Part shown: positions 5,174-13,506 of the stretch, piece by piece
Position numbering within the stretch: position 1 is the stretch's first letter
How the letters are laid out: the number at the start of each line of letters is the position of its first letter
Assembly: GCA_025361935.1 (NCBI GenBank)
Contig: JANYJB010000029.1
Span: 1 to 33,427 of the forward strand
Source of the DNA: Verrucomicrobiota bacterium
GTDB taxonomy: Bacteria > Verrucomicrobiota > Verrucomicrobiia > Opitutales > Opitutaceae
Reading direction: 5' to 3'
Length of the DNA: 33,427 bases
The notes under the pieces: generated by a model
Seen by the model: only the letters and a program-made list of their open reading frames with translations
Databases searched by the model: none
What the model was told of the DNA's origin: nothing
Made by a program: the position numbers and the translations under genes

Positions 5174-5677
5174 ATGAAATCTTCCGAATCCGATAATCAG
5201 CCTCCGGCTACACAGTCAGAGATGGATGCTCTGTTGCCCCGCCGGAAATTTTCTGAGGCCCGCGCCGAACAGTTGTCGCAACGGCTGGTGCGTCGATTTA
5301 TCTCGGCTCTAAGGAAACTCAATGACCCCTCCATGCTTTTAAGTGGTCAAGATTCGGGGCTAAAAACCGTGTGGGATGAAATCTGTGTGCAGTGTCAGGT
5401 TGATAGATTTTTAGATTGGGACGCCTACGAAATGACGATCCACGCCATTATCGATGGAACGGTGGAGAAACTGTCCCATGATAAGCAGGTTGATCTTTGG
5501 TTACTCACCGAATCCGGCTGGGACTGGCTTTACGACCAGGAGGACGACCAAACACGACCGGATATAGTGCTGAGCGATATTACAGACCTATTGAGGCAGC
5601 GCCTGCTTGAGGCGGCCGGGGACTATTCCAACCAGCGGATTCGCGCCTACGTCGAATGGGCTGGGTCTCGTGATTGA
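5174..5677 (+). CDS. Hypothetical protein, 167 residues
   Basis: I do not recognise this family. The protein is acidic, soluble and mostly helical, with no signal peptide or membrane span. A basic segment near residues 22-48 (LPRRKFSEARAEQLSQRLVRR) precedes Trp/Asp-rich parts (LKTVWDEICVQCQVDRFLDWD and LLTESGWDWLYDQEDDQ) and a final helix ending in RAYVEWAGSRD. The high Trp, Asp and Glu content recalls immunity-type or antitoxin-type proteins, but that is only an impression. A strong promoter precedes it and a divergent XRE regulator lies upstream, so the two may form a regulated pair. It is the last gene before the restriction locus, which begins 183 bp further on. Confidence 0.65.
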   Translation: MKSSESDNQPPATQSEMDALLPRRKFSEARAEQLSQRLVRRFISALRKLNDPSMLLSGQDSGLKTVWDEICVQCQVDRFLDWDAYEMTIHAIIDGTVEKLSHDKQVDLWLLTESGWDWLYDQEDDQTRPDIVLSDITDLLRQRLLEAAGDYSNQRIRAYVEWAGSRD

Positions 5678-5860
5678 CCAAAATGTTTTCCCGGTTGGCG
5701 ACGCCTGAAATGCTGAAGAGGTTGTTGTGCCGTGCTGCCATGTATCGGAAACATCCTAACTTTCATTGCACCTTGAACGAATATCCAAGTCATCCGACTA
5801 ATTTCTGGAAACCATCGTTGCGCTAGGCGGTTGCGGGCTTCAAAAACTGAGCACGTTCGC

Positions 5861-8728
5861 ATGTCGCATATGCCTAACCAAACCCCCGAACAAATCGCCC
5901 GCGACGCCATCGATGCGCAGCTCCGGGCTTCGGGTTGGGCTGTGCAATCAAAGGATGCCATCAACTTCCACGAGGCAGAGGGCCAAGCCGTCCGCGAATA
6001 CACCACGGACACCGGCCCCGCCGATTACGTTCTCTTCGTCGATGGCCAACCCGTCGGCGTGATCGAGGCCAAGAAGGAAACTCTCGGCCACACCATCACC
6101 GCTGTCGAAGACCAGACCGCCGAATACGCCGCCGCCAAGCTCAAGTGGGTCCAATCAACCGGCATCCCGCTCCCTTTCCTCTACGAAGCCACCGGCGTCA
6201 TCACCCGCTTCACCGACCAGCGCGACCCCAAGCCCCGCTCCCGCGAGGTTTTCTCCTTCCACCGTCCCGAAACCTTGCGCGAGTGGATCGCCGCCGGCCG
6301 CTCCCTCCGCGCCCGCCTCCACGATCTCCCCGCGCTCGACCCGGCCAACTTGCGAGAGTGCCAGATCGAGGCCGTCACCAATCTCGAAACTTCCCTGAAG
6401 GCCGCCAAGCCCCGCGCCCTCATCCAGATGGCCACCGGTGCCGGGAAAACCTTCACCGCCATCACGTCCGTATATCGCTTGCTCAAGCACGCTCGCGTCC
6501 GCCGCGTGCTCTTCCTCGTCGATACGCGCAACCTCGGCGAGCAGGCCGAACAGGAGTTCCTCGCGTTCACGCCCAACGACGACAACCGCAAGTTCACCGA
6601 ACTCTACTCCGCCCAGCGCCTCGCCTCGTCGCACGTGCCCGCCGACGCGCAGGTCTGCATCTCCACCATTCAGCGGATGTATTCGCTGCTTCAGGGCACC
6701 GAACTCGATGAATCCGCCGAGGACGAAAATCCCGCCGAGCACTCCTCCGACCGCAAACGCGAACCGCTCCCCGTCGCCTACAACGCCAAAGTTCCGCCCG
6801 AGTTCTTCGATCTCATCGTCATTGATGAGTGCCACCGCTCGATCTACAATCTCTGGCGTCAGGTCCTGGACTACTTCGACGCCTTCCTCGTCGGCCTCAC
6901 CGCCACGCCCGACGCCCGCACCTACGGTTTCTTCTACCAAAACATCGTCTCCGAATACACCCACGAAGACGCCGTCGCCGATGGCGTGAACGTGCAGGGC
7001 GAGATCTACACCATCGAGACCGCCGTCTCCCAACAGGGAGGCACTGTCCTTAAAGGCCTCGTCGAGAAACGCGAAAAGCTCACTCGGGCCAAGCGCTGGC
7101 AGCAACAGGACGAGGACACCGCCTACTCAGCCAAAAAACTCGACCGCGCCATCGTCAACCCGTCCCAGATCCGCACCGTCATCCGCGCTTTCCGCGATCA
7201 CCTGCCCGCGATTTTCCCCGACCGCATCGACGCCGCCGGTGCCTACGAAGTCCCCAAGACCCTCATCTTCGCCAAGACCGACTCCCACGCCGACGATATC
7301 ATCAACATCGTCCGCGAAGAGTTCGGGGAGGGGAACGCCTTCTGCAAAAAGGTCACCTTCGGCACCAACAAGGGCGTCAAGCGCATCACTTTCGACCCCG
7401 CCTACGACAATCAGCGCCACGTCGAGGACGACTACATCCAGGACCCCGAGACCGCCAAATCCGTCCTCTCCCAGTTTCGCAACGGCTACCATCCGCGCAT
7501 CGCCGTCACCGTGGACATGATCGCCACCGGCACCGACGTAAAGCCCCTCGAATGCCTGCTCTTCATGCGCGACGTGAAGTCCAAGGGCTACTTCGAGCAG
7601 ATGAAGGGCCGCGGCACCCGCACCCTCGACCTCGACGGCCTGCGCAAAGTCTCCTCCGCCGCCAAGTCCGGCAAAACTCACTACGTCATCGTGGACGCCA
7701 TCGGCGTCACCAAGTCCCTCAAGACCGCCAGCCGCCCGCCCGTCACCCGGCCCACCGTCCCGTTCAAAGACCTCGCCATGGAGGTCGTCATGGGCGCGAG
7801 CGACGCCGACACCGTTTCCTCCCTCGCCGGCCGCCTCGCCCGCATCGAGCGCCAGCTCACGCCGCTGCAAAAACACCAGATCGCCCAAAAGATGGGCGGC
7901 ACCGCCCTCGGCCAACTCGTCAAAAATCTCTTCCACGCCATCGACGGCGCCGCCATCGAGCAACGCGCCCTCGCCCTCGCCGGCCAGCCACCCGGCACCG
8001 ATCCCGGCGACACCGCCCGCGAAAAGGCCCAGCAACAACTCGTCGCCGCCGCCCGCACCCCGCTCACCGGCGCCGTCGTCACCCTCATCGTCGAGACCTG
8101 CACCGCCAACATGCAGACCATCGACCACGACACGCAGGACCACCTGCTCAACGCCGACTGGGATACCGACATCCACGAGCGCGCCGCCGCCTTCACCCAC
8201 GATTTCGAGACCTTCTGCCGCGATCACCGTGACCAGCTCGATGCCCTCACTATTTACTACTCGCAGCCCCAGCGACGGCAGGAAGTCACCCTCGCTCATA
8301 TTAAAGACGTGCTCGCCGCCCTTCGCCAACACGCCCCGCGCCTCGCGCCCCTCCGCGTGTGGGACGCCTACGCCCGCCTTGACGAAGTCCCCGCCAACGC
8401 CCGCCCCCTCACCGAATTGACCGCATTGATCGCCCTCCTCCGCCGCGCCTGCGGCATCGACCAAAAGCTGACGCCCTTTGCCGACACCGTTCGTCGCAAC
8501 TACCGCGACTGGATCGTCCGCGAAAACGCCGGCACGCCCTTCACGCCCGCGCAGACCGCCTGGCTCCAGCTCATCCGCGACCACGTCATGACGTCTTTCC
8601 GCATCGACCGCGAAGATCTCGAATACGCCCCCTTCGACGCCCAAGGCGGCCTCGGCAAAATGGATCAACTCTTCGGCGACCGCATGGACCCGCTCATCGC
8701 TGAACTGAACAAGGAGCTGACGGCGTGA
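5861..8728 (+). CDS. hsdR: Type I restriction endonuclease subunit R (HsdR, EcoEI-like)
   Basis: The motor and nuclease subunit of a type I restriction-modification complex; it translocates DNA with ATP and cuts unmodified DNA. Numbering from the ATG at 5861 (955 residues), the PD-(D/E)xK nuclease is at 55-71 (GPADYVLFVD then VGVIEAKKE; Asp55, Glu69, Lys71). Walker A is ATGAGKT at 191-197, the DEAD-type box is DECH at 322-325, motif III is LTATPDA, and motifs V-VI are MIATGTDVKPLECLLFM and YFEQMKGRGTR. The remaining roughly 350 residues match the HsdR C-terminal region that contacts HsdM and HsdS. A TTG at 5831 extends the frame and another ATG lies at 5870; no start has a clear ribosome site. 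The stop overlaps the hsdS GTG, indicating translational coupling. Codon use is strongly GC-rich, unlike the genes to its left. Confidence 0.95.
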   Translation: MSHMPNQTPEQIARDAIDAQLRASGWAVQSKDAINFHEAEGQAVREYTTDTGPADYVLFVDGQPVGVIEAKKETLGHTITAVEDQTAEYAAAKLKWVQSTGIPLPFLYEATGVITRFTDQRDPKPRSREVFSFHRPETLREWIAAGRSLRARLHDLPALDPANLRECQIEAVTNLETSLKAAKPRALIQMATGAGKTFTAITSVYRLLKHARVRRVLFLVDTRNLGEQAEQEFLAFTPNDDNRKFTELYSAQRLASSHVPADAQVCISTIQRMYSLLQGTELDESAEDENPAEHSSDRKREPLPVAYNAKVPPEFFDLIVIDECHRSIYNLWRQVLDYFDAFLVGLTATPDARTYGFFYQNIVSEYTHEDAVADGVNVQGEIYTIETAVSQQGGTVLKGLVEKREKLTRAKRWQQQDEDTAYSAKKLDRAIVNPSQIRTVIRAFRDHLPAIFPDRIDAAGAYEVPKTLIFAKTDSHADDIINIVREEFGEGNAFCKKVTFGTNKGVKRITFDPAYDNQRHVEDDYIQDPETAKSVLSQFRNGYHPRIAVTVDMIATGTDVKPLECLLFMRDVKSKGYFEQMKGRGTRTLDLDGLRKVSSAAKSGKTHYVIVDAIGVTKSLKTASRPPVTRPTVPFKDLAMEVVMGASDADTVSSLAGRLARIERQLTPLQKHQIAQKMGGTALGQLVKNLFHAIDGAAIEQRALALAGQPPGTDPGDTAREKAQQQLVAAARTPLTGAVVTLIVETCTANMQTIDHDTQDHLLNADWDTDIHERAAAFTHDFETFCRDHRDQLDALTIYYSQPQRRQEVTLAHIKDVLAALRQHAPRLAPLRVWDAYARLDEVPANARPLTELTALIALLRRACGIDQKLTPFADTVRRNYRDWIVRENAGTPFTPAQTAWLQLIRDHVMTSFRIDREDLEYAPFDAQGGLGKMDQLFGDRMDPLIAELNKELTA

Positions 8729-10092
8729 GTGAAAATGGAATCCCATTGGCCGACGCCGTCATCCCACGCGTCGAGAAGGCAATGCCTACCGATTTCCCAA
8801 GTGAGCCCTTTCTCGGCTTGGACGACATAGAGGCGCACACCACGCGGCTCCTCGGATATAAACCGAGCGAATCAATGAAGAGTGCCGCAAAGAGGTTTTA
8901 TCCCGGCGATGTTCTCTACTCCCGACTTCGTCCCTACCTGAACAAAGTCTGGTTGGCTGATCGCACGGGCCTCTGCTCGTCAGAGTTCATCGTGCTCCCA
9001 TCGAATGAAAATGTGGACGGCGCGTTTCTGAAATACCGCCTCAACGCGATGGATTTTGTCTCATTCGCGAACTCGCTGAATGCAGGTGATCGACCGCGGG
9101 TGGACTTCGACCAGATTGGCCCGTTCCAGTTGCCTCCGTTTTCGGCCAGCTACCAGAAGCGGATCGTGGCGAAGATCGAGGAGTTGTTCAGCGAGTTGGA
9201 GGCCGGGGAGGCGAGTCTGCGGAAGGCGCGGCGGCAACTCGGCGTCTATCGCCAGTCGCTCCTCAAACAAGCCTTCGAGGGCAAGCTCACGGCAAAGTGG
9301 CGCACCCAAAACCCCGACAAACTCGCGGAGTGGTCTTGGCTCACGCTACAAGACATCGCCGACGTCACCGGCGGTCTCACCAAAAACTCAAAGCGGGACA
9401 GCTTACCCACGCGCATTCCCTATCTTCGCGTCGCTAACGTTTACGCGAACGAACTCCGCCTCGACGAAATAAAGGACATCGGCGTCACGACTGCGGAAGC
9501 AGATAAAGTCCGCCTCATGAAAGGCGACCTGCTCATCGTCGAAGGGAACGGCAGCCTTGATCAGATTGGCCGCGTCGCGCTGTGGAATGGCTCGATTTCA
9601 AACTGCGGCCACCAGAATCACCTGATTCGTGCCCGCTGTCGCGCGATGGCACACCCGGCCTTTGTTTTGATGTTCCTCCTTTCGCCGCTCGGCCGCGATG
9701 CGATCGAAAAACAAGCTGCGTCAACTTCGGGGCTGCACACCTTGAGCGTGTCGAAAGTGCAACGGCTTCCCGTCCCCCTCTGCTCCCTCCCCGAGCAACA
9801 GAAAATCGTGCGCATCCTCGACGAGCAGTTCGAGGCTATCGAGCGGAACGAGCGAGAGCTCGACGCCGCCTTGAAGCGCAGCGAGACCCTCCGCCAGTCG
9901 ATCCTCAAGCGCGCCTTCTCCGGCCGCCTCGTCCCCCAAGACCCCGCCGACGAACCCGCGCCCGCCCTCCTCGCCCGCCTCCGCGTCGAGCGGTCGAACA
10001 CATCGTCGTCATCGGCTTCGTCATCGTCATCGTCATCGGCGTCTGCGTCGTCATCAACTAACTCTCTGCGCCGGCGTCGCGCTCTTCCTTAA
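8725..10092 (+). CDS. hsdS: Type I restriction-modification specificity subunit S (HsdS)
   Basis: The DNA-recognition subunit, 455 residues, with the usual two-fold layout. Target-recognition domain 1 covers about 1-145 (YPGDVLYSRLRPYLNKVWLA, then IGPFQLPPF). The first conserved helix pair is at 150-195 (QKRIVAKIEELFSELEAGEA, QSLLKQAFEGKL). Target-recognition domain 2 covers about 205-355 (IPYLRVANVYANELRLDEIK, MKGDLLIVEGN, VQRLPVPLCSLPEQQKIV). The second helix pair ends in RQSILKRAFSGRLVPQDP. The two domains would each read one half of a bipartite site; the site cannot be read from sequence. Translation starts at a GTG inside the GTGA overlap with hsdR. The C-terminus carries an unusual Ser-rich tail encoded by near-tandem TCG/TCA triplets and ends in a basic RRRRALP. 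Confidence 0.95.
   Translation: MSENGIPLADAVIPRVEKAMPTDFPSEPFLGLDDIEAHTTRLLGYKPSESMKSAAKRFYPGDVLYSRLRPYLNKVWLADRTGLCSSEFIVLPSNENVDGAFLKYRLNAMDFVSFANSLNAGDRPRVDFDQIGPFQLPPFSASYQKRIVAKIEELFSELEAGEASLRKARRQLGVYRQSLLKQAFEGKLTAKWRTQNPDKLAEWSWLTLQDIADVTGGLTKNSKRDSLPTRIPYLRVANVYANELRLDEIKDIGVTTAEADKVRLMKGDLLIVEGNGSLDQIGRVALWNGSISNCGHQNHLIRARCRAMAHPAFVLMFLLSPLGRDAIEKQAASTSGLHTLSVSKVQRLPVPLCSLPEQQKIVRILDEQFEAIERNERELDAALKRSETLRQSILKRAFSGRLVPQDPADEPAPALLARLRVERSNTSSSSASSSSSSSASASSSTNSLRRRRALP
10003..10053 (+). repeat. TCG/TCA triplet tract at the 3' end of hsdS
   Basis: Seventeen consecutive codons here are almost all TCG or TCA, broken only by GCT, GCG and TCT, and encode a Ser/Ala run. The block TCATCG is repeated back to back near 10021-10038. 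Such tracts change length by slippage. Here length changes in whole triplets would only alter the Ser tail. Confidence 0.75.
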
Positions 10093-10114: not shown

Positions 10115-11602
10115 ATGTCCACCGCACTCAAATTCAACCCGCGACAAATGATGGAGCGCGCCGTCGAAGTAATGAAGGCTTCAATCGCGGAGCAGCGCGA
10201 CGACGGGAAGACCAGCCCGTTGGTGGGCGCTGTGCTGGTCAAACCGGACGGGAGCGTGGAAACCGCCCACCGCGGTGAATTGCGCGAAGGGGATCATGCC
10301 GAGTTCACGCTCATCGAGCGCAAGCACCGTGGCGCCCGTCTCGACGGTTCCTCCTTGTTCGCGACGCTCGAGCCCTGTGCACCCGGAGCGCGCAAACCGC
10401 CCAAGTTAAGCTGCGCCGAGCGCATTGTGAACGCCAGGATCAAGCAAGTTTGGGTGGGCATCGAAGACCCCGATCCCTCCGTGGACCGCGAGGGACTGCG
10501 ACACCTCGAAAAAAACGGTGTCACCGTGCACATGTTCGACGCCGACCTGCAGCAGGAGATTCGCGAAGCGAACAAAGCGTTCCTTGTTCAGGCCGCAAAA
10601 CGAGCCGCCGAAGCGAAAGACGCCCCGGCCCAACCCCAGGCAACTTCAGAGTGGGAACGTTCCTTGAGTGGAGCGGTGAGTGCCGGCTTGTCGAAGACCG
10701 CATTGAAGTCGTTTCGATCCAAGATCGGCCGTCGCCTGAGCGCGGTGGAGTTCGATCAATTGCTCGTGCGGCAGGGATTTCTCGTCAAATCCGGTCGGCA
10801 AACAACACCGACCCGGTTGGGCTATCTGCTATTTGGCTCCTCTCCCCGTGATTTGCTTCCGCAAGCCGGTCTGAAAGGCACGATTCATTTCCCGGACGGC
10901 AAGGAGGAGGTGCGGGATTTTGACCAACCATTAATCCTCATCCCCGATCTCCTGGAGAACTGGTTGCGCGATAAACTACCCTTCGCCAGCGACCGCAGCC
11001 ATATGACTAGAAAGGATTCTTTCGGGGCACCTTTTGAGATTGTTCGTGAAGCGGTGATTAACGCGCTCGTGCATCGGGACTATGATATCCCGGGAGCCAC
11101 CTGCCATGTGGTCGCTACCGCCGATACGATTACCGTCCGCAGTCCAGGAGCGGCGCCGTCGCCGGTGAGTCTTACGCAGTTGCAAGCCCTCCGAGCACCG
11201 ATGCTAAACCGGAATCCGAAACTTCAACTGGCTTTTGGCGGAGCGCGGCTGGCGGAAGGACGGGGTCTGGGCATGAAAACCTTCAATGAAGCCGCCACCA
11301 AACACGGCCTACCATTGCCACGATATGAGTTCGACGGCGTTTACCTGAACCTGACCATCTACCGAAACGCGGAGGCGGCAATCCAATCACTTGAGCCAGC
11401 CATCGTGAAGAAACTAAGCGGATCTGAACGCAAAGGCTGGGCATGGCTGACATCGCAAGGAGCCGTGAAATCGAGTGAATACGCTCTCGCCACCGATAAT
11501 GATGAACGCACCGCACGGCGGCATCTCAATTACTTCATCGAACTCAAACTAGTGGAGAAAATCGGCTCGGGACCTTCCACCCAATATCAAATTCGTCGAT
11601 GA
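10115..11602 (+). CDS. RibD-like deaminase fused to HATPase_c_4 and winged helix, inside the type I R-M locus
   Basis: A 495-residue multidomain protein. Residues 8-157 are a zinc-dependent deaminase of the RibD/dCMP-deaminase superfamily: VGAVLV at 37-42, His61-Ala-Glu63, TLEPC with Cys88, second cysteine ligand Cys100, then GIEDPDP. There are eleven residues between the two cysteines, longer than usual for RibD. A linker at 158-185 leads to a region (186-285) that resembles the middle part of COG2865-type putative regulators. Residues 286-417 are the divergent HSP90-like ATPase module HATPase_c_4: EIVREAVINALVHRDY with Asn316, RSPG, NRNP, then RLAEGRGLG. The rest (about 425-495) looks like a winged helix (LNYFIELKLVEKIG). 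The AlbA/Schlafen domain that usually precedes HATPase_c_4 is absent; the deaminase takes its place. The gene lies between hsdS (22-bp gap) and hsdM. It could deaminate a nucleotide or sense one and control the operon. The substrate is unknown. Confidence 0.85.
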   Translation: MSTALKFNPRQMMERAVEVMKASIAEQRDDGKTSPLVGAVLVKPDGSVETAHRGELREGDHAEFTLIERKHRGARLDGSSLFATLEPCAPGARKPPKLSCAERIVNARIKQVWVGIEDPDPSVDREGLRHLEKNGVTVHMFDADLQQEIREANKAFLVQAAKRAAEAKDAPAQPQATSEWERSLSGAVSAGLSKTALKSFRSKIGRRLSAVEFDQLLVRQGFLVKSGRQTTPTRLGYLLFGSSPRDLLPQAGLKGTIHFPDGKEEVRDFDQPLILIPDLLENWLRDKLPFASDRSHMTRKDSFGAPFEIVREAVINALVHRDYDIPGATCHVVATADTITVRSPGAAPSPVSLTQLQALRAPMLNRNPKLQLAFGGARLAEGRGLGMKTFNEAATKHGLPLPRYEFDGVYLNLTIYRNAEAAIQSLEPAIVKKLSGSERKGWAWLTSQGAVKSSEYALATDNDERTARRHLNYFIELKLVEKIGSGPSTQYQIRR

Positions 11603-11626: not shown

Positions 11627-11714
11627 ATCCGGACATTTATCCGGACGTTTGTCCGGATAAAGATGGCATGCTCAAAACGCTATCCGGACATCTATCCGGA
11701 CATTTGTCCGGATA
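11627..11714. promoter_or_regulatory. Two matching clusters of ATCCGGAC words before hsdM, probable operator array
   Basis: Cluster 1 (11627-11659) reads ATCCGGACATTT, ATCCGGACGTTT, GTCCGGATA. Cluster 2 (11682-11714) reads ATCCGGACATCT, ATCCGGACATTT, GTCCGGATA. In each, two direct 12-bp units are followed by an inverted half, so the second unit and the end form a palindrome ATCCGGAC-N4-GTCCGGAT. The clusters begin exactly 55 bp apart, about five helical turns. No long T-run follows, so a terminator is unlikely. The position, 20 bp before the hsdM start, suits an operator, and the winged-helix protein encoded just upstream is the nearest candidate binder. That link is inferred. Confidence 0.7.
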
Positions 11715-11734: not shown

Positions 11735-13213
11735 ATGACCACCGACAGCATCATCTCCAAAGTCTGGAGCTTCTGTAACACCCTCCGCGACGACGGCGTG
11801 GGCTACGGCGACTACCTCGAACAGCTCACCTACCTCATCTTCCTCAAGATGGCCGACGAATACGGCCGCCCGCCCTACAACCGCAAGGTCGGTGTGCCCG
11901 CGCGCTATTCGTGGTCGGTCATGCGCCCCCTCAAGGGCAAGGAACTCGAAGACCACTATATCGAGGCGCTGCGCGCACTCGGAACAGAGAAGGGCATGCT
12001 TGGCCAGATATTCACCAAGGCCCAAAACAAGATCCAAGACCCCGCCAAACTCGCCCGCCTCATCGAGATGGTCGATGACATCTCGTGGGTCACTCTCGAT
12101 GCCGACACCAAGGGCGACATCTACGAGGGCATTCTCGAAAAGAACGCCGAGGACACCAAGTCCGGCGCCGGCCAATACTTCACTCCCCGCGCCCTCATCA
12201 AGGCCATGGTCGAGTGCGTCGCTCCCGAACCCGGCAAATCCATCGCCGACCCGGCCTGCGGCACCGGCGGTTTCTTCCTTTCGGCCTACGACTACCTCGT
12301 CGGCCATCATCAGCTGAACCGCGACCAGAAGGCGTTTCTCAAAAACGAAACCTTCCACGGCAACGAGATCGTCGCCGGCACCCGCCGCCTTTGCCTGATG
12401 AATCTCTTCCTCCACAATATCGGCGAGATCGACGGCAACAGCCTCATCGCCTCGACCGACGCTCTCATCGCTCAACCGGCCCAGACCGTGGACTACGTGC
12501 TCGCCAATCCCCCGTTCGGCAAAAAGAGCTCGATGACCTTCACCAACGAGGAAGGCGAACAGGAGAAGGAAGACCTCGTTTACAACCGTCAGGATTTCTG
12601 GGCCACCACGTCCAACAAGCAGCTCAACTTCCTCCAGCACATCCGCTCGCTCCTCAAGACCACCGGCCAGGCCGCCGTGGTGTTGCCCGACAACGTGCTC
12701 TTCGAAGGCGGCGCCGGCGAAACCGTGCGCAAAAAGCTCATGGAGACGACGGAACTCCACACCATCCTCCGCCTGCCCACCGGCATCTTTTACGCGAACG
12801 GCGTGAAGGCCAACGTGCTCTTCTTCGACAACCGTCCCGCCAGCAAGACTGTCGCGACCAAGGAAGTCTGGTATTACGATTACCGCACCAATATCCACCA
12901 CACGCTGAAGCGAAAGCCGCTCCGACTCGAAGATCTCCGCGAGTTCGTCGATTGCTACAACCCGACCAACCGCCACAAGCGCAAGGAAACGTGGCACGCG
13001 GAAAAAAATCCAGACGGCCGCTGGCGCAAGTTCACCCACGCCGAACTGATCGCGCGCGATAAAACCAGCCTCGACCTCTTCTGGCTCAAGGACGACAGCC
13101 TCGCCGACCTCGACAACCTCCCCGAGCCCAACGTGCTCGCCGACGAGATCATCGAAAATATCGAAACCGGCCTCTTAAACTTCCGCAACGTCGTGGCGGC
13201 ACTCGGCAAGTAA
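11735..13213 (+). CDS. hsdM: Type I restriction-modification DNA methyltransferase subunit M (HsdM)
   Basis: The N6-adenine methyltransferase subunit, which protects host sites and is required with HsdS for target recognition. It has 492 residues. An N-terminal HsdM helical domain covers about 5-130 (LRDDGVGYGDYLEQLTYLIF, then KGDIYEGILEKNA). The S-adenosylmethionine motif DPACGTGG is at 172-179, and the catalytic motif IV NPPF at 258-261 belongs to the (D/N)PP(Y/F) type of N6-adenine enzymes. QYFTPR (147-152) is a further family signature. The C-terminal helical part carries VWYYDYRTNIHHTLKRKPL. The gene stands behind the ATCCGGAC array rather than next to hsdS, so methylation can be expressed separately from restriction, which makes sense for avoiding self-cutting. 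It converges on tRNA-Asn; no clear terminator of its own is seen. Confidence 0.95.
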   Translation: MTTDSIISKVWSFCNTLRDDGVGYGDYLEQLTYLIFLKMADEYGRPPYNRKVGVPARYSWSVMRPLKGKELEDHYIEALRALGTEKGMLGQIFTKAQNKIQDPAKLARLIEMVDDISWVTLDADTKGDIYEGILEKNAEDTKSGAGQYFTPRALIKAMVECVAPEPGKSIADPACGTGGFFLSAYDYLVGHHQLNRDQKAFLKNETFHGNEIVAGTRRLCLMNLFLHNIGEIDGNSLIASTDALIAQPAQTVDYVLANPPFGKKSSMTFTNEEGEQEKEDLVYNRQDFWATTSNKQLNFLQHIRSLLKTTGQAAVVLPDNVLFEGGAGETVRKKLMETTELHTILRLPTGIFYANGVKANVLFFDNRPASKTVATKEVWYYDYRTNIHHTLKRKPLRLEDLREFVDCYNPTNRHKRKETWHAEKNPDGRWRKFTHAELIARDKTSLDLFWLKDDSLADLDNLPEPNVLADEIIENIETGLLNFRNVVAALGK

Positions 13214-13431: not shown

Positions 13432-13506
13432 TGGCTGCCCGGGTAGGGGTCGAACCTACGACCAAGTGATTAACAGTCACCTGCTCTGCCACTGAGCTAC
13501 CAGGCA
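13432..13506 (-). tRNA. tRNA-Asn(GTT)
   Basis: Read on the minus strand, the gene begins TGCCTGGTAGCTCAGTGG and ends GGTTCGACCCCTACC then CGGGCAGCCA. The acceptor stem TGCCTGG/CCGGGCA pairs over seven positions with one G-T. The anticodon arm is GTGA-CTGTTAA-TCAC, giving anticodon GTT (Asn). The T arm has the standard GGTTCGA loop, and the CCA end is encoded. Its 3' end faces the accessory region, the usual orientation for an integration site. Confidence 0.95.

Follow-up and report, generated by a model that had tools for sequence, protein, structure and literature searches.

A RibD-like deaminase on a HATPase_c_4/winged-helix chassis in a type I restriction operon, with a putative operator array behind its gene

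Why should a type I restriction operon carry the gene for a protein that unites deaminase, ATPase and winged helix in one chain? The question is raised by a 33,427-nucleotide stretch of a Verrucomicrobiota genome (contig JANYJB010000029.1, positions 1 to 33,427), referred to here as the window. In it hsdR, coding for the type I restriction subunit (5831-8728; ResIII, EcoEI_R_C and HSDR_N domain matches), hsdS for the specificity subunit (8725-10092; profile matches) and hsdM for the N6-adenine methyltransferase subunit (11735-13213; profile matches) lie on the plus strand together with a fourth gene, called F here. The F open reading frame (10115-11602, ATG start) codes for a 495-amino acid deaminase-HATPase_c_4-winged-helix fusion, as assigned from the reading frame, Pfam, an alignment and a structural model. 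The original prediction, made from the letters alone, had placed this fusion between hsdS and hsdM, and the gene coordinates agree: the operon order is hsdR-hsdS-F-hsdM, all on the plus strand, and F is separated from its two neighbours by 22 and 132 bp. Near this operon lies a tRNA-Asn gene on the minus strand (13432-13506). The tRNA-Asn-rplY-pth block is kept in the 11 same-genus genomes where it was found, and the other side of these blocks is without hsdM within about 1.2 kb; the hsd operon of the window therefore looks like an island next to tRNA-Asn. Ahead of hsdR there is a 167-amino acid open reading frame (5174-5677) without a significant Pfam, NCBIfam or PADLOC match, which a codon-usage gene model does not call and which is possibly no gene. 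The 3' end of hsdS encodes a serine-rich run (9990-10061) past its last conserved region.

Domain search, structure prediction and fold comparison of the F protein recovered all three predicted parts. A RibD-like zinc deaminase domain occupies residues 8-165 (10136-10609), with a Pfam match to dCMP_cyt_deam_1 over residues 15-115 (E 4.4e-11). It is followed on the same plus strand by a central region common to AlbA/DUF4062-HATPase_c_4 proteins (residues 191-300; 10685-11014), by a HATPase_c_4 (GHKL) region (residues 301-420; 11015-11374) with an above-cut-off Pfam match over residues 327-415 (E 1.2e-10), and by a C-terminal winged helix (residues 428-495; 11396-11599). The zinc motif H-A-E ... 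P-C ... C of the CDA fold is present as had been claimed, and its residues His61, Glu63, Cys88 and Cys100 are invariant in 70 homologues, where residues 5-14 and 59-66 have to be read as ascertained since the locus scan used peptide patterns at those positions. Within the HATPase region the predicted Asn316 is likewise invariant in the 70 homologues, together with Glu312, His320, Arg321, Ser343, Gly345, Asn367, Glu381 and Gly386. The deaminase is the best-conserved part of F, with a mean pairwise identity of 62% (61% once the residues that served for locus detection are left out) relative to 48% for the HATPase. An AlphaFold model built from the 70-sequence alignment has a mean pLDDT of 88.8, and places the winged helix at residues 428-494. 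Among solved structures this model is matched best by 3lmm, an AlbA-HATPase_c_4 protein, over residues 118-450 (Z 22.8, 241 residues), and by RibG/RibD over residues 8-163 (VIA Z 20.6). Thus, F is the chassis of 3lmm with a RibD-like deaminase in place of the AlbA domain. Pfam finds no match in F to the AlbA_2 domain (PF04326), whose place is taken by the deaminase, or to DUF4062 (PF13271).

Other proteins carry different domains on this chassis. Ten homologues of the core that lack the deaminase were tested, and the N-terminal domain is DUF4062 in eight of them and SLFN_AlbA_2 in two. The presence of DUF4062 or Schlafen-AlbA in the deaminase's place points to exchangeable antiphage effectors at the N-terminus of the HATPase_c_4/winged-helix chassis, a set to which the deaminase would now be added. 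The Schlafen(AlbA_2)-HATPase_c_4-wHTH proteins (3lmm/DIP2311) resemble F in the central region, the HATPase_c_4 and wHTH chassis and their occurrence in defence operons, but have an N-terminal RNase-like AlbA domain, no deaminase and, in the examples tested, no 3' array of the kind described below. According to a passage in PMC12839542 that cites a preprint, BREX and related loci have backup effectors in the form of Schlafen-minimal histidine kinase-wHTH proteins. The DUF4062-HATPase_c_4 proteins are the nearest chassis homologues of F in our searches, but differ in having an NADase for the deaminase and no comparable 3' array. DUF4062 is the antiphage TIR-like NADase of Swarozyc (PMC13174449, a preprint); in the characterised Swarozyc an auxiliary HTH domain binds the phage portal, unlike the array reading that we propose for F.

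The expectation that homologues of the whole fusion exist was borne out by a scan of about 85,000 species genomes, which yielded 80 F-family loci in many phyla. Three of 388 genomes of the phylum have the family, with one internally deleted copy in addition, and there are no full-length relatives among the 55 relatives searched, same-genus genomes included, or in plasmid and phage records; viral contigs hold deaminase-domain or chassis relatives of F only. The family is evidently a widespread and horizontally moved one. No model in Pfam, NCBIfam or PADLOC-DB 2.0 matches F over its full length, the PADLOC matches being weak, partial and of pAgo type. A literature search found no paper describing the fusion or the array; its coverage of papers on deaminases and conflict systems was incomplete, and prior mention is possible. 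We regard the protein as a variant on a chassis already known, whereas the operator cassette may be of a new kind. In one copy (L052:8343-8936, identical with L024) residues 89-390 are gone by one in-frame deletion, which joins the deaminase start to the winged helix with the 3' array kept; this may be a decayed gene, an assembly error or a solo DNA binder.

When neighbourhoods were analyzed with a purpose-made gene caller and clustering, which are simple tools applied to incomplete contigs, type I hsd genes were seen to adjoin F, in the same orientation, at 21 of 81 loci. The orders around F include R-F-M (L095, L104), S-F-M (the window) and S-F-R (L080, L087, L112, L122). HsdM occurs 13 times in the F flanks relative to 1.4 occurrences expected (Poisson P about 3e-9), the expectation being based on 390 N6_Mtase (PF02384) matches in 78 of the family's genomes, or about 326 Mb with sizes rounded. 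On a quick family tree the hsd context was gained or lost about 13 times, at least 11 of which are forced by well-supported branches. The association with restriction operons is thus non-random. Most members, on the other hand, do not lie beside type I genes and often adjoin other defence genes: type III res/mod (L071, L072), Eco57I-type (IIG) enzymes (L110, L115), GmrSD (type IV; L098), SIR2 and/or HerA genes (L053, L061, L066, L124, with overlaps of 3-10 bp in two of these), DUF1156/NOV_C helicase (L079, L084), HD-CE (L121) and, next to some members, DISARM-like genes. Integrases (L055, L120) and housekeeping genes (L051, L107, L113) are also found around F. The presence of F beside these type III, IIG, GmrSD, SIR2-HerA and DISARM-like genes indicates that its link is to defence and not to type I systems alone. 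Hence, the enrichment beside hsd genes expected from the original prediction was found, and a defence-type role gains support from the restriction and other defence neighbours, but the survey rules out an exclusive link to type I systems and does not support F as a specific switch for them. Judged by these neighbours, F belongs to defence islands in general and has often found its way into restriction operons. Two loci combine defence genes in other ways: in L053 the SIR2/HerA genes lie within the hsd operon between hsdS and F, and in one type I locus (L129:9971-13838) a deaminase fusion lies close to an AlbA-HATPase_c_4 gene that shares its chassis.

Between F and hsdM lies an array (11627-11713) that is absent from the earlier reading of the window. 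It consists of two putative operator units on the plus strand, ATCCGGACA-TTT-ATCCGGACG-TT-TGTCCGGAT at 11627-11658 and ATCCGGACA-TCT-ATCCGGACA-TT-TGTCCGGAT at 11682-11713, each built of three 9-mers around TCCGGA, of which two are direct and one is inverted. The direct-repeat pattern of the window has four occurrences in the 2.48-Mb genome, all of them behind F. In the 4.4 Mb of Pedobacter insulae the exact palindrome has just two occurrences, which lie 63 bp from each other, as they do behind F. The array sites are thus private to the F gene in the genomes tested. When all flanks were read, this A-A-A' plan was seen in the 3' flanks of nearly all F-family members. In the usual unit the direct copies are 4 (or 3) bases apart and the inverted ones 3, and the period is 61-63 bp, relative to which the window array is slightly irregular with its 2-base loop and 55 bp period. 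With loose settings a scanner picks up 128 units in the 58 kb of 3' flank as opposed to 99 in 1,152 kb elsewhere, and with strict settings 49 units in 54.5 kb of 3' flank (36 loci) as opposed to 1 elsewhere. The array is also present in all four members found by plain protein search, which used no DNA or peptide pattern, the internally deleted one included. Behind the RibD genes and AlbA/DUF4062-type homologues that were fetched there is none, save for one loose, dissimilar unit 537 bp behind L028. Coding repeats were rejected as an explanation of the array because its period of 62 is not divisible by 3. Exact A-A-A' units without the fusion gene occur in viral contigs (L170-L220; for example L186:3807, L190:3263, L205 and L214). 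About 35 of these lie directly behind a ribonucleotide-reductase-like gene in one phage group and run into a terminator-like T-stretch, and about a dozen more are in unrelated places. The motif may therefore have other users, and the viral solo units may be decoys, other users of this kind or a coincidence of form.

The sites differ from locus to locus, with words that include CCGGACA, CCCGCCA, CGGGCCA, CGCGACA, CTCGCCA, TTGGACA and ATAGACA among others; examples of arrays with other words than that of the window are ATCCCGCCA, ATCGCGACA and CTTGGACA. Close relatives can differ in their word and distant ones agree. What the word follows is the C-terminal winged helix: given the rest of the protein, word distance and helix distance have a partial r of 0.366 (0/2000 permutations) for 62 words that were read by eye after the helix alignment was seen, as compared with -0.12 for the deaminase and 0.004 for the HATPase in the same test. 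Because the words had been read by hand with the alignment already seen, the test was repeated with 49 automatic words, errors included, and this gave a partial r of 0.265 (0/2000 permutations) with the other regions not significant. The co-varying segment, which belongs to the recognition helix, is RTARRHL at residues 465-471, which pairs with CCGGACA in eight of nine cases, the ninth being RSARRHL. At the same positions RTALNH goes with CCCGCCA, RTAKNHL with CGGGCCA and RT[AT]SRHL with ATAGACA, and at 469-470 NH goes solely with GCCA (12/12) and RH with GACA in 35 of 36. Exchange is evident from individual pairs. L095 and L104 are 84% alike outside the C-terminal winged helix and 29% within it, and have different words, whereas L088 and L114 are 49% alike outside and 87% within, and have the same word. 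All pairs that are alike outside but unlike in this helix differ in word, and nearly all pairs alike in the helix only share it. The simplest account would be that the array is what the winged helix reads, and that it travels with the 3' end of the gene as one exchangeable specificity cassette. If helix and array are so exchanged, then the distal units with other words in L064, L089, L104, L105 and L069 would be relics of earlier words. A widespread defence-island gene would thereby carry its own diversified, privately matched DNA sites, and the co-variation between residues 465-471 and the 7-base word is a ready-made candidate for a protein-DNA recognition code.

From the architecture, the invariant catalytic residues, the repeated association with restriction and defence genes, the 3' array and the co-variation of word and helix, all of them read from sequence, we propose that F is a second-line defence effector under the control of its own DNA sites, a reading that we hold to be about evenly balanced between right and wrong. 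F would be a mobile defence module in which a RibD-like deaminase serves as effector on a GHKL-ATPase/winged-helix chassis, where other proteins have a Schlafen RNase or a DUF4062 NADase in that role. The effector reading draws its main support from the replacement of the deaminase by DUF4062 or SLFN_AlbA_2, both reported as antiphage effectors, on the same chassis. The C-terminal winged helix would bind the private array just 3' of its own gene, probably as duplex DNA, and the F oligomer would be switched in an ATP-dependent manner. Array binding would hold F in check and/or regulate the surrounding operon until infection, or failure of first-line restriction, triggers the deaminase, which would then provide a second line by acting on nucleotides (or nucleic acids). 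Several findings count against this proposal. Most members do not adjoin type I genes, the solo viral units may point to other users of the motif, and operon regulation can be only part of the account, since at least 13 of the 80 loci lack a co-directional gene behind the array. Moreover, no array sites were seen upstream of F, a lack that would be unusual for an autorepressor. Such a backup role is likened to that of PrrC backing up EcoprrI; PrrC is, as F is, an extra gene embedded in a type I hsd operon, but differs from F in being an ABC-ATPase anticodon nuclease, and we know of no operator array in PrrC/EcoprrI. PrrC guards a type I restriction system (PMC3710099, PMC12707154). A more specific version, which we consider unlikely, is that the private array serves as self tag or DNA 'antitoxin' and keeps the ATPase-deaminase parked on the chromosome of its own cell, so that loss, degradation or takeover of that DNA would free the enzyme; helix and array would then be an exchangeable, orthogonal lock and key that leaves relic arrays behind. 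The array thus offers a concrete prediction of what keeps such effectors inactive or targets them, a question that concerns the whole Schlafen/DUF4062 chassis group.

The alternative that survives best, although it seems to us somewhat improbable, is that F is mainly a transcription regulator whose array is a roadblock or a promoter-proximal operator that tunes the downstream gene (hsdM in the window), with the deaminase and ATPase acting as a nucleotide sensor or signal-clearing enzyme. This would be congruent with the second unit of the window ending 21 bp ahead of the hsdM start codon, and with the next gene being co-directional in 55 of 80 loci at a median gap from F of 316 bp. However, in 13 loci an opposite-strand gene comes next, and the downstream genes are unrelated among loci. 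The operators of restriction C (controller) proteins usually lie upstream of the C gene. These C proteins are similar to F in being HTH-type DNA binders with their own operator within a restriction locus, the Kpn2I one acting as an elongation roadblock, but are small HTH proteins without an enzyme domain (PMC6237814). Also at odds with a regulator are the fully conserved catalytic site, which exceeds the needs of a sensor, and the toxic effectors that sister chassis proteins carry according to passages in PMC12839542 and PMC13174449.

An RNA reading of the array was the one first favored, given its hairpin-like covariation: each unit can be folded as a hairpin (A2-A3), repeating at 61-63 nt, and the hairpins of the 3' transcript might serve as antitoxin or cofactor of the deaminase, the part that AvcI RNA plays towards the deaminase AvcD in avcID, a type III system. 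AvcID is indeed similar in that a deaminase is the antiphage effector and a nucleic-acid element lies beside its gene (PMC10511110), and it differs in that an RNA antitoxin restrains AvcD, which acts on dCMP/dCTP. The element behind F, unlike AvcI RNA, has the appearance of duplex DNA sites and tracks the winged helix, a fold that typically reads DNA. Mismatched pairs within the units show no preference for G-U over A-C (12 to 14 and 7 to 9), which favors duplex DNA over RNA; the third copy, A1, is kept as strictly as the other two, and an Rfam search of the array found no family. The RNA reading was set aside on these grounds and now appears quite improbable. Slightly less probable still, in our estimate, is the idea that F and its array are a mobile cassette in which the array is the recombination or target site for entering operons and deaminase function is secondary. 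The F gene does enter many different operons, and relic-like units lie behind the proximal ones as noted above, but F contains no recombinase, the array is on the 3' side only, and the catalytic deaminase is the part that is best conserved.

That F might be an ordinary riboflavin or tRNA deaminase, an outcome the original prediction had named against itself, or a dCMP deaminase, and just happens to lie in the operon, is hardly credible: the closest solved deaminases are indeed RibG/RibD, but F has defence neighbours and lacks the RibD_C reductase domain (Pfam), and its genome encodes a RibD of its own, with RibD_C, as well as three further deaminases elsewhere. F shares with RibD/RibG the fold, the zinc site HAE...PC...C and about 30% identity, and differs in having extra residues between both cysteines, an altered pocket and a separate place in the tree, the family deaminases forming one clade beside RibD (support 97/98). 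The NCBIfam RibD model TIGR00326 stays below threshold on F (62.8 as opposed to a cut-off of 156.35 bits), and the Pfam Inv-AAD (AID/APOBEC-like) match to F of 36.3 bits (cut-off 26.5) covers a half-domain and is to be compared with 25.9 bits for RibD itself. Several positions are invariant in the family and differ from RibD, namely Arg53 (His in RibD), Glu55, Arg57, Phe64-Thr65, Glu68-Arg69 and Lys97, and position 120 is mostly Asp in the family and Asn in RibD; the RibD pocket residues Asn/His/Asn have become Ser/Arg/Asp. The RibG residues that match the changed positions presumably line the substrate pocket, and these changes therefore suggest a substrate other than that of RibD. A nucleotide substrate is our guess; pockets of the RibD kind can equally take other pyrimidines or pteridine-like rings. 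A similar RGE...GDHAEF signature was also seen in deaminases from two other settings, one on a viral contig with an unidentified N-terminal region (L133:4267-5316) and one joined to a methyltransferase domain (L025:1480-2787).
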